Below are positions 7,283 through 11,078 of a stretch of DNA of 64,000 nt, piece by piece. The notes beneath the pieces were generated by a model. It saw only the letters and a program-made list of their open reading frames with translations, was not told the DNA's origin and made no database searches. Location of the stretch: assembly GCF_004208525.1 (NCBI RefSeq), contig NZ_SGIT01000004.1, positions 186,001-250,000 on the forward strand. The letters are read 5' to 3'. This DNA is from Sphingobacterium corticibacterium. GTDB lineage: Bacteria > Bacteroidota > Bacteroidia > Sphingobacteriales > Sphingobacteriaceae. Made by a program: the position numbers and the translations under genes. How positions within the stretch are numbered: the stretch's first letter is position 1; the number at the start of each line of letters is the position of its first letter.

Positions 7283-7320
7283 AAAGAGGGGCGTTTAATA
7301 TGCCCCTCTTTTCATTTCTT
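7273..7320. terminator. Bidirectional terminator between cupin gene and trpC
   Basis: An inverted repeat of about 19 bp per arm (GAAATGAAAAGAGGGGC and its complement GCCCCTCTTTTCATTTC) has a 9-base loop at 7293-7301. Flanking A/T tracts on both sides make it a Rho-independent terminator in either direction. It overlaps the stop codons of both convergent genes, so it closes the trp operon and the cupin transcript. Confidence 0.9.
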
Positions 7321-8092
7321 TTACAAAATCCTTTATCGCTTTGCTTGGGGCTTCGGTCTTCATAAAATTTTCGCCGATCAGAAATCCCTGGAAACCTGTT
7401 TTTCGCAATGTATTGATGGTATTGGGGTCAGATATACCACTTTCCGATACCTTGATGAATCTGTCGGGAATTTTATCGACCAAATCATAAGAATGATTTA
7501 AATCTACTACAAAATCCTTTAGGTTACGATTGTTCACGCCGATAGCATCGATGCTATCAAAAAGGCTACGTTGAAGTTCTTCTTGGTTATGTACCTCCAA
7601 AAGCACATTTAACCCTAGCGATTTTGCATAATCCGCAAGTGTTTCAATTTCCTTGCTATTGAGGCAAGCCGCAATCAATAGGATAATATCAGCACCATAG
7701 GCTTTGGCCTCGGCTATTTGGTACTTGTCGACAATAAACTCTTTGCGTAGCAAGGGAATGGTCAATACCTCCCGTGCCGCACGGATATCCGCAAGAGAAC
7801 CTTGGAAAAAATCCGAGTCTGTCAGTACCGATACCGCAGACGCTCCAGCATCTTGGTAACCTCGAACAACGTCCGCTACACCCGATGTACCGTTAATGAG
7901 TCCTTTCGATGGAGAGGCCCGTTTAAACTCCGCAATAATGCCTGTCCGCTGCGGGTGCAATATCGAGTCTTTCAGCGAATAGCAAGTTCTATTAAAAAGT
8001 GGGTATCCCTCCAGCTCGCTTAAGGAAGCCTGTTCTTTAGCTTCCGCTACTTCGATTCTTTTCCGCGCTATTATTTTATCTAGTATCGTCAT
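7295..8092 (-). CDS. trpC: Indole-3-glycerol-phosphate synthase
   Basis: A 265-residue TIM-barrel enzyme converting CdRP to indole-3-glycerol phosphate in tryptophan synthesis. Diagnostic motifs are AEFKRASPSKG (catalytic Glu55 and Lys57), PLLRKEF (catalytic Lys117), DIILLIAACL, LLEVHNQEE, IGVNNRNLKDF and SESGI. The length is normal for a monofunctional enzyme without fused TrpF. It is the last gene of the local trpE-trpG-trpC unit, ending at a strong terminator. The 55 bp between trpG and trpC contain no trpD. Confidence 0.97.
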   Translation of the reverse strand: MTILDKIIARKRIEVAEAKEQASLSELEGYPLFNRTCYSLKDSILHPQRTGIIAEFKRASPSKGLINGTSGVADVVRGYQDAGASAVSVLTDSDFFQGSLADIRAAREVLTIPLLRKEFIVDKYQIAEAKAYGADIILLIAACLNSKEIETLADYAKSLGLNVLLEVHNQEELQRSLFDSIDAIGVNNRNLKDFVVDLNHSYDLVDKIPDRFIKVSESGISDPNTINTLRKTGFQGFLIGENFMKTEAPSKAIKDFVKEMKRGAY

Positions 8093-8147: not shown

Positions 8148-8720
8148 CTAAAATAACCAATTCGCTATTAACTTTTTTCCATTTGTTGTCAATACGGATT
8201 CTGGATGAAACTGCACACTGCGCACGTCGTATTCCCTATGGCGTAACGCCATGATAATGCCGTCTGGATCCAGCGCCGTTACCTGTAGGCAATCCGGCAT
8301 ATTTTCTTTGGATACCGCCCATGAATGATATCGTCCGATTTTAGAATCCTTAGGAAAACCTTGAAAGAGTTTCTCCGTTTCGTCGGTAATGACGATATCA
8401 GTAGCTACACCATGTAAGGGCTTCGGCATGTTGTATAGTGAGCCTCCGAATACCTCGGCAATAGCCTGCTGCCCCAAGCAGATGCCTAAGATACGTTTAG
8501 TAGGAGCATATCGACGGATAACATCCATTAAAAGCCCTGCTTCTTCCGGTATTCCTGGTCCGGGTGACAGTAATATGCTGTTGAATGGTTCTACATCGTC
8601 AAGTTCGAACTTGTCATTTCTCCATACCGTATAATCTTGTCCTAATTCCTGTAATAAGTGGACAAGGTTGTAGGTAAATGAATCGTAATTGTCGATTACT
8701 AATATTTTATTGTTACTCAT
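8148..8720 (-). CDS. trpG: Anthranilate synthase component II (glutamine amidotransferase)
   Basis: A 190-residue class I glutamine amidotransferase supplying ammonia to TrpE. The catalytic triad is visible: Cys81 in GICLGQQ, and His172 and Glu174 in QFHPESVLT. The oxyanion loop LSPGPGIPEEAG and the start VIDNYDSFTYN are typical of TrpG/PabA. It lies 6 bp after trpE, so translation is probably coupled. In many bacteria the same subunit also serves aminodeoxychorismate synthase, and that cannot be excluded here. Confidence 0.95.
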   Translation of the reverse strand: MSNNKILVIDNYDSFTYNLVHLLQELGQDYTVWRNDKFELDDVEPFNSILLSPGPGIPEEAGLLMDVIRRYAPTKRILGICLGQQAIAEVFGGSLYNMPKPLHGVATDIVITDETEKLFQGFPKDSKIGRYHSWAVSKENMPDCLQVTALDPDGIIMALRHREYDVRSVQFHPESVLTTNGKKLIANWLF

Positions 8721-8726
8721 TTCTTA

Positions 8727-10130
8727 TTATAGCGTTTCTGCAATTTCTAAAGCGCGACGTAAAGCCGCAATTTTGTTGTTAACTTCCTGTAGCTCTTTTT
8801 CAGGGTCAGAGTCCAGCACGATCCCTGCCCCTGCTTGGTAGTGCAGTACATTCTGTTTGCTCAGAAAGGAGCGGATCATGATAGCATGATTGAAATCACC
8901 ATTAAACCCCATATAGCCAATAGCACCAGAATAGAAAGATCGTTGCAAACCTTCGTAACGGTCTATCAGCGTGAGTGCTTTATGTTTGGGAGCACCCGAT
9001 AATGTTCCCGCGGGGAAGGTGTCGCCTACGACATCAAAAGGGTTAGAGGTGGGGTTTAGTTTTCCTGAAACCTTGGATACCAGATGGATAATATGCGAAT
9101 AATATTGTGCCTCTTTATATGATTTCACCTTTACGTGGGTACAGTGGCGGCTCAAATCATTTCGTGCCAAATCAACGAGCATCACATGCTCTGCAGATTC
9201 CTTCGGATCATTTTTCAACTCTTCTGCGATCATTTCATCCTTTTCCATGTCGCCCGTACGTTTGAACGTTCCGGCAATGGGATATATCGTGGCTTCTCCT
9301 TTTTTGATGGTCAGCTGCGCCTCTGGCGAGGAACCAAATAACTTGAAGTCGCCATAATCAAAATAGAAAAGATAAGGTGAGGGGTTAACCGACCGCAATG
9401 CGCGGTATACGTTAAATTCATCTCCCGCAAACGGCGTGGAAAATGCGCGCGATGGGACAATTTGGAAAACATCTCCGCGCTGTATATGTTGTTTCATCTT
9501 TTCGACCAAGCTTCTGAAGTCCTCGTCTGCCATATTAGAAGCCTCTTCACCCTGACGTTTAAAATTATATTCGGGGAAATTTTTATTCTGTATTAAATAT
9601 TCCAGTCTATCTAGATCAGAAGATTCGTCGGTTAATAGATTTTCGAAAATATAGAGTTGGTTTCTGAAATGGTCGATCGCGATGACATAGCGATATACAT
9701 GGTATTGCATATAAGGGATTTCGCGCGCAGAATGTGTGCCTGCTGTTAGCGCAATATCTTCAAAGTGCTCGACGGCATCGAAGGTGAAATACCCGAATAA
9801 CCCGGAGGAAATAACGTTCACGCCTTCTATGTCCGATTGAGAGAACTGTTTACGGAATGCTGATACCTCTTCTCGGAGATTAATTTCATTGGCGCTCTTA
9901 TAAACGGGTTTTGCGCTAGGTTCTATAATGCGAAGATGTTCCTTGTCGAGGGTAATGCCCGCAATCGGTTCACAGCAAATATAGCTGATATTGTTATCGC
10001 GACTGTGGTATTCCGAACTCTCCAACAGCAAACTGTTTGGGAATGTATCCCGCAGGCGGAGATAGATGCTTACTGGCGTCGTTGTGTCGGCCAGTATCTT
10101 TCTGTAATTCGTTTTCAGTTTATATTTCAT
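8727..10130 (-). CDS. trpE: Anthranilate synthase component I
   Basis: A 467-residue chorismate-utilising enzyme forming anthranilate, the first committed step to tryptophan. The N-terminal domain has the LLLES tryptophan feedback site at residues 34-38. The C-terminal chorismate-binding domain shows FQIVPSRAF, FGSSPEAQ, PIAGTFKRTGD, NDPKESAEHVMLVDLARND and GTLSGAPK. It heads a unit with trpG and trpC. The 186 bp upstream carry a leader peptide and attenuator (separate entries), so the gene should respond to charged tRNA-Trp as well as to feedback inhibition. Confidence 0.97.
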   Translation of the reverse strand: MKYKLKTNYRKILADTTTPVSIYLRLRDTFPNSLLLESSEYHSRDNNISYICCEPIAGITLDKEHLRIIEPSAKPVYKSANEINLREEVSAFRKQFSQSDIEGVNVISSGLFGYFTFDAVEHFEDIALTAGTHSAREIPYMQYHVYRYVIAIDHFRNQLYIFENLLTDESSDLDRLEYLIQNKNFPEYNFKRQGEEASNMADEDFRSLVEKMKQHIQRGDVFQIVPSRAFSTPFAGDEFNVYRALRSVNPSPYLFYFDYGDFKLFGSSPEAQLTIKKGEATIYPIAGTFKRTGDMEKDEMIAEELKNDPKESAEHVMLVDLARNDLSRHCTHVKVKSYKEAQYYSHIIHLVSKVSGKLNPTSNPFDVVGDTFPAGTLSGAPKHKALTLIDRYEGLQRSFYSGAIGYMGFNGDFNHAIMIRSFLSKQNVLHYQAGAGIVLDSDPEKELQEVNNKIAALRRALEIAETL

Positions 10131-10181: not shown

Positions 10182-10211
10182 AAAAAAGCCCGACGTTTAA
10201 TCGCCGGGCTT
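10182..10211 (-). terminator. trp attenuator terminator hairpin
   Basis: On the minus strand a 10-bp stem (AAGCCCGGCG paired with CGTCGGGCTT, one G-U pair) has a six-base loop ATTAAA and is followed by a run of Ts. It lies between the trpL stop and the trpE start (10130). Its 5' arm (CCCGGCG, 10202-10208) can pair instead with CGTCGGG at 10267-10273 inside the leader ORF, giving a mutually exclusive antiterminator of seven base pairs. This is the classical ribosome-mediated attenuation layout. Confidence 0.9.
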
Positions 10212-10248
10212 ACTTTCAAAATGGTTTTGGTTGATTATGAATATTTAG

Positions 10249-10317
10249 TTACATACCAAACGCATTCCCGACGCTACTTGCTTCGAGCCACCACCAGTTT
10301 GTATGTAATTTTTTCAT
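10249..10317 (-). CDS. trpL: trp operon leader peptide (three consecutive Trp codons)
   Basis: A 22-codon ORF reads MKKLHTNWWWLEASSVGNAF followed by GM and TAA, with Trp codons 8-10 as TGG TGG TGG. Trp is rare and three in a row in so short an ORF is the hallmark of a tryptophan-sensing leader. Codons 15-17 (AGC GTC GGG) contain the segment that can sequester the terminator 5' arm. A ribosome stalled at the Trp codons would leave it free and allow read-through. A ribosome reaching the stop would cover it and let the terminator form. A promoter lies just upstream. Confidence 0.9.
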   Translation of the reverse strand: MKKLHTNWWWLEASSVGNAFGM

Positions 10318-10333
10318 GATCATTTGTGTAGCG

Positions 10334-10363
10334 CAAATTTATGAATATTTTTTATTTGGCAAA
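10334..10363 (-). promoter_or_regulatory. Predicted trp operon promoter (Bacteroidota sigma-70 type)
   Basis: On the minus strand TTTG (10360-10363) is separated by 18 bp from TAAATTTG (10334-10341), matching the Bacteroidota -33 TTTG and -7 TAnnTTTG elements. Transcription would begin near 10328, about ten bases before the trpL ATG. There is no terminator between the trmD stop (10401) and this site, so read-through from trmD is possible and would also pass through the attenuator. Confidence 0.75.
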
Positions 10364-10400: not shown

Positions 10401-11078
10401 TTAGTCATTTAGCAAATCTGGGCGACGTTCTTCGGTACGTTTAAGCTGTTGCTCGTAGCGCCAGGTGGTAATTTTTGCTTCGTGACCGCTAAGTAGTACC
10501 TCTGGAACACGATGCCCTCGCCATTCTGCCGGCCGTGTATATATAGGTGCATCCAGCAATCCGTCTTGAAAAGAATCTGATAAGGCAGAAGTCTCGTCGG
10601 ACAATACACCGGGTATCACACGAGCCACGGCATCTACCAATATCGCGGCGGGTAGTTCACCACCAGACAGTACATAATCCCCAATGGAAATTTCTTTAGT
10701 CACAAATATATCGCGGATACGTTGGTCAATCCCCTTGTAATGTCCACATAGTATAATGACGTTCTCTACGGAAGACAGTGTATTGGCGATTTCTTGGTTG
10801 AGGGTTTCACCATCCGGTGTCATATAAATTACCTCGTCATAGGATCGTTCTGCCTGTAATTTTTCGATGCAGGCCGCAAAAGGTTCTATTTGCATGACCA
10901 TGCCCGAGCCGCCTCCATAAGGATAGTCGTCAACAGACTTGTGTTTGTTTGTTGCATAATCCCGCAGATTGTGTACGTGGATTTCCACCAGACCTTTGTG
11001 CTGGGCACGTTGCAGGATAGAATGTGCAAAAGGACTCTCCAATAAGCCGGGTAATACGGTAATGATATCAAAACGCAT
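10401..11078 (-). CDS. trmD: tRNA (guanine37-N1)-methyltransferase
   Basis: A 225-residue SPOUT-class methyltransferase making m1G37 in tRNAs with a G36, which prevents +1 frameshifting. Motifs seen are [24 protein letters not shown], the knotted SAM loop [11 protein letters not shown] (110-120) and [11 protein letters not shown] (131-141). Length is normal. It is not flanked by rpsP or rimM as in many phyla. A TATCTTTG box lies at 11083-11090 on the minus strand, only 5 bp before the ATG, so the mRNA may have a very short leader. Confidence 0.97.

Follow-up and report, generated by a model that had tools for sequence, protein, structure and literature searches.

Control of tryptophan genes by a ribosome translating a leader peptide is a classical principle, and the E. 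coli trp attenuator (Rfam RF00513, Trp_leader) is among the closest known systems to the one described here. Attenuation of amino acid genes has been predicted outside Proteobacteria, including trp leader-peptide attenuators in Actinobacteria (PMC1262725), which resemble the present leader by their description in that paper and belong to another phylum. A 2010 paper lists leader-peptide systems as shown in Proteobacteria and Actinobacteria only (PMC2965389). The earlier note on this DNA had asked whether such a form was already described in Bacteroidota: it is, as the predicted motif RF01692 (Bacteroid-trp, "Bacteroidete tryptophan peptide leader RNA"), given in Table 1 of Weinberg et al. 2010 (PMC2864571). 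This phylum prediction has a narrower range than the leaders reported below, and other earlier predictions besides RF01692 are possible. In the literature, we found no experimental attenuation study for Bacteroidota or for this leader.

We analyzed a 64,000-nucleotide stretch of Sphingobacterium corticibacterium DNA (the window), in which trpE is preceded by a leader that, judging from comparative evidence and predicted folding, is very probably a tryptophan attenuator that works through the ribosome, as in the E. coli trp operon. Like RF01692, it stands before trpE in a member of Bacteroidota, encodes a Trp-rich leader peptide, and is predicted to form a hairpin between the Trp-codon region and the next segment; its antiterminator and terminator lie outside the RF01692 model or are unlike it, and it scores 27.0 bits, under the curated cut-off of 49. 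With the E. coli attenuator it shares adjacent Trp codons and a four-segment logic of protective hairpin, antiterminator, and terminator. Unlike in E. coli, the antiterminator lies within the leader open reading frame (ORF) and the start codon is very near the presumed transcription start; the score against RF00513 is 16.5 bits (curated cut-off, 41). No riboswitch family matches the window leader.

Leader architecture at the trpE locus

The leader and the genes around it comprise the following features, in window coordinates.

10401-11078, minus strand: trmD, the upstream neighbor of the leader
10360-10363, minus strand: promoter -33-type element TTTG, kept in the family alignment
10334-10341, minus strand: promoter -7-type element TAAATTTG, of the form TAnnTTTG kept in most relatives
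10249-10317, minus strand: leader peptide ORF, MKKLHTNWWWLEASSVGNAFGM, 22 codons from ATG at 10317 to the stop TAA at 10249; an ORF is kept in relatives
10283-10308, minus strand: segment 1, comprising TTACATACAAAC (10308-10297), the Trp codons, and CTCGA (10287-10283); from the predicted fold, with relatives alike
10288-10296, minus strand: three consecutive UGG (Trp) codons, codons 8-10, the putative control codons (sequence and shuffles)
10249-10273, minus strand: segment 2, comprising the predicted antiterminator CGTCGGG (10273-10267) and GTTTGGTATGTAA (10261-10249); from the fold and pairing tests
10223-10237, minus strand: conserved box TAATCAACCAAAACC, past the leader stop and ahead of the terminator, from the family alignment and a common-word comparison
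10202-10211, minus strand: segment 3, terminator 5' arm AAGCCCGGCG, common to the antiterminator and terminator pairings
10182-10195, minus strand: segment 4, terminator 3' arm CGTCGGGCTT and T-run (sequence and terminator scan)
8727-10130, minus strand: trpE, anthranilate synthase component I, the presumed regulated gene (best NCBIfam model TIGR00564, 430 bits, cut-off 518; trpG-trpC context)
8148-8720, minus strand: trpG, glutamine amidotransferase of anthranilate synthase (TIGR00566, above cut-off)
7295-8092, minus strand: trpC, indole-3-glycerol-phosphate synthase (NF001377, above cut-off)

The promoter, leader ORF, triple TGG, terminator, and antiterminator had been proposed in the earlier note, and all are present on the minus strand with every coordinate right. 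The two promoter elements, TTTG and TAAATTTG, are separated by an 18-nt spacer; from this Bacteroidota promoter form, we take transcription to start approximately 7 to 15 nt upstream of the leader ATG. A second in-frame ATG at 10323 offers an alternative leader start that would add M-I to the peptide. The terminator hairpin (AAGCCCGGCG-ATTAAA-CGTCGGGCTT, 10211-10186, followed by the T-run) is the sole terminator-like site in the region (0.2 in shuffles), and the RNA fold of the leader has a z score of -3.5. CGTCGGG begins 23 nt past the first UGG, inside the leader ORF, and 15 nt separate it from the leader stop codon. In the predicted fold, segment 1 pairs with segment 2, which forms the 3' side of a protective hairpin, and relatives have the same architecture. 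An ORF with adjacent Trp codons lies upstream of a trp gene, an intrinsic terminator precedes the first structural gene, and, by sequence and predicted folding, an antiterminator exposed by stalling would compete for the terminator 5' arm, as expected of this class of attenuators. The name trpE rests partly on gene context, since its best NCBIfam model falls below cut-off; among named organisms, S. micropteri has the closest TrpE (98%).

The box TAATCAACCnAAACC (10223-10237) is part of none of the three helices. Its core occurs in approximately 40% of Sphingobacteriaceae trpE leaders; it is restricted to them and is not among the common words of trpD leaders or of other families. When the box TAATCAACC was tried as a marker for more attenuators, it turned up at four other sites as a near match, and no leader ORF was evident at any of them. 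The one-mismatch form TAATCAACCTAAACC lies near position 1500 of L120, upstream of a riboflavin-synthase-like ORF, and near position 1500 of L121, next to an elongation-factor-P-like ORF, each with a hairpin beside it; these sites may be due to chance (approximately 0.7 expected by a rough hand estimate).

Conservation and pairing among relatives

TrpE was searched in 121 Sphingobacteriaceae and 168 phylum genomes, and the upstream regions were extracted. An ATG-started short ORF with WW or WxW precedes trpE in 98 of 106 Sphingobacteriaceae (3.4 in dinucleotide shuffles) and in 68 of 71 other Bacteroidota (1.5 in shuffles), the phylum figure referring to genomes with a recognizable trpE (99 of the 168 searched). 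Leader ORFs with WWW were found in 50/106 family trpE regions, 64/71 regions from other Bacteroidota, and 50/70 trpD regions, and never in the shuffled counterparts of any set. Most of the family members that lack an ATG-started WW or WxW ORF either start the leader with GTG or TTG or have fewer Trp codons. A second genome set of named organisms, overlapping the first, had a WW or WxW leader ORF in 76 of 80 regions. All 239 leaders with an assigned ORF carry a T-tailed terminator between leader and gene. Outside the family, the Trp codons and their spacing are kept with little other sequence conservation.

In genus g14 (L077, L079, L081, L087, L090-L099), W-x-W leaders (HTWLWQ, NTWHWR) replace WWW, with the second Trp at the usual distance from the antiterminator. 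The trpE leaders of genus g3 (L073, L075, L078) have one Trp codon only at the control site, and trpD in that genus was seen without a Trp leader (L258, L259), possibly reflecting decay of the system.

The pairing of CGTCGGG with the terminator 5' arm (CCCGGCG), first noted from the window alone, holds across the family alignment, where pairing with the arm is found in 77.8% of the cells of the seven antiterminator columns compared to 21 to 43% for slid partners, with pairs changed on both sides (e.g., T-A/C-G and G-C/A-T). CGTCGGG/CCCGACG is the combination in most leaders, and CATCGGG/CCCGATG, CGCAGGC/CCCTGCG, and, in genus g5, GCGACAAG/CTTGTCGC also occur, such that altered terminators go with matching antiterminators. 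When terminators were swapped between genera, pairing weakened from -14.1 to -6.1 kcal/mol in g5 and from -13.4 to -5.9 kcal/mol in g8; among genera sharing the common terminator, the swap caused no strong weakening. In g16, g18, and g21, the antiterminator pairing is weak or has a central mismatch. The spacing between the first Trp codon and the antiterminator varies little (median, 22 nt; middle half, 20 to 23); given the size of a ribosome footprint, an antiterminator at this distance would stay uncovered by a stalled ribosome. Relatives therefore retain both the Trp codons and the exclusive stems, the loss of which would have counted against attenuation.

In predicted folds of most leaders, the Trp-codon region pairs with the antiterminator segment. 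When the Trp codons are covered, the predicted fold moves from the protective hairpin to the antiterminator, which is not so in shuffles: with the leader covered to the stall point, the predicted number of pairs between the terminator arm and upstream RNA changes by +2.9 bp in family trpE leaders (-0.8 in shuffles), +5.0 bp in trpD leaders (-0.6), and +3.1 bp in other Bacteroidota (-1.3). Before the 3' arm of the window leader is made, 6.9 antiterminator pairs are expected with a stalled ribosome compared to 1.1 without. By the folding index, about half of trpE leaders are without a clear switch. At equilibrium, the complete terminator of the window leader beats the antiterminator with or without a stalled ribosome, so the model needs folding during transcription and coupling of ribosome and polymerase. 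In E. coli, the mechanism likewise depends on events during transcription.

A second leader before trpD

The trp genes of this genome are split, with trpD, trpF, trpB, and trpA on a contig other than that of trpE-G-C. Upstream of trpD (L152 1138-1270; contig C4, approximately 438.9-439.0 kb) lies another candidate attenuator, with the leader peptide MKLNNVNRAWWWHNS containing WWW and ending at a stop codon, the terminator GGCTTGCC...GGCAAGCC-T7, and the antiterminator GGCAA. Such a leader occurs before trpD in 65 of 70 family regions (1.2 in shuffles), and in most trpD leaders the stop codon is at or near the antiterminator. The trpD pair type, GGCAACC/GGGTTGCC, is distinct from that of trpE, and swapping the trpE and trpD partners within a genome gives the best internal check on the antiterminator. 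Where both leaders are present, a genome's own pairings jointly beat the swapped ones in 61 of 66 cases; by genus, own pairing is better in 18 of 19 (Wilcoxon P = 8e-6). The swap rule is a statistical one: taken singly, the trpE leader of the present genome follows it, and the trpD leader goes against it (own, -9.5; swapped, -10.8). With a second, similar attenuator before trpD-F-B-A, the two parts of the split pathway would respond to one signal.

Of the genome's 50 TGGTGGTGGY places, the first 30, to which the window's own does not belong, were checked for a third Trp leader; among them, a WWW ORF together with a strong terminator was present solely at the trpD leader. No His-run leader with a terminator was found at the 12 places examined out of 31.

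Proposed mechanism, alternatives, and range

From the parts, their conservation, the compensatory pairing, and the mutually exclusive predicted folds, we infer that the leader would be translated and that stalling and termination would respond to tryptophan. When charged tRNA-Trp is scarce, a ribosome would stall at UGG codons 8-10 and cover segment 1, leaving CGTCGGG free to pair with the terminator 5' arm as it emerges; the terminator would then not form, and trpE-G-C would be transcribed. When tryptophan is plentiful, the ribosome would reach the stop codon and then leave, and the antiterminator, either partly masked or folded onto the Trp-codon region in the protective hairpin, would permit the terminator to form. 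Masking by a ribosome at the stop had been proposed in the earlier note. It could be at best marginal, reaching the antiterminator's last bases, because of the 15-nt gap, so the off state is more likely to be the protective hairpin; the attenuator reading itself is favored by conservation, compensatory pairing, spacing, and the alternative-folding test alike.

The hairpin could instead be a plain intrinsic terminator of the trmD transcript, with the WWW ORF incidental. It is a good terminator, and trmD ends upstream at 10401 on the same strand, but WWW ORFs never arise in shuffles, the antiterminator and terminator arm change together, and a second copy stands before trpD. Moreover, leader and terminator are retained ahead of trpE throughout the phylum, also in genera so far apart that an accidentally shared upstream gene is improbable (upstream genes being compared in no systematic way). 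This explanation is highly improbable. An effect chiefly on translation or mRNA stability, through coupling to trpE translation, is suggested by the trpE start approximately 50 nt beyond the terminator and by bacterial leader peptides that can work through reinitiation (PMC4833913). However, every one of the 239 leaders has a T-tailed terminator before the gene, and the segment that pairs is the terminator arm and not the trpE start, so such an effect is very unlikely to be the main one. The chance that a riboswitch or an RNA-binding protein senses tryptophan, with the ORF secondary, appears negligible: the conserved box that fits no helix would suit such a sensor, but it is confined to this family's trpE leaders, the Trp codons and spacing are what is conserved elsewhere, and riboswitch families give no match.

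Attenuation of this kind works only if a ribosome closely follows the polymerase, and if it is true of Bacteroidota, it implies close coupling of the two. In line with this expectation, Bacteroidota are not listed among the phyla for which a 2026 study predicts runaway transcription (PMC13323073). With the trpE leader, transcription-translation coupling in the phylum could be put to a concrete genetic test, and the twin attenuators are a natural experiment in which one genome carries two unlinked leaders with different antiterminator-terminator pairs.

We consider it likely that attenuation is ancestral and near-universal on Bacteroidota trpE and mostly missed by RNA models, and that in Sphingobacteriaceae a second matched attenuator co-regulates the unlinked trpD-F-B-A without a shared protein regulator. 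Near-universality and the twin attenuators on a split pathway are the main interest here, taking a sparse prediction to phylum-wide, strong comparative support. As a detector in relatives, RF01692 failed for most: its cut-off is passed by just 27 of 296 Bacteroidota genomes, mainly of one family, with matches directly upstream of trpE where present. A search of the whole S. corticibacterium genome gave no match, nor did 20 other diverse Sphingobacteriaceae leaders even at a loose threshold. The model needs rebuilding from wider members. RF00513 gives sub-threshold matches (28 to 36 bits; cut-off, 41) at WWW leaders in three other Bacteroidota families (L145 2984-3099, L147 1393-1490, and L159 468-572).
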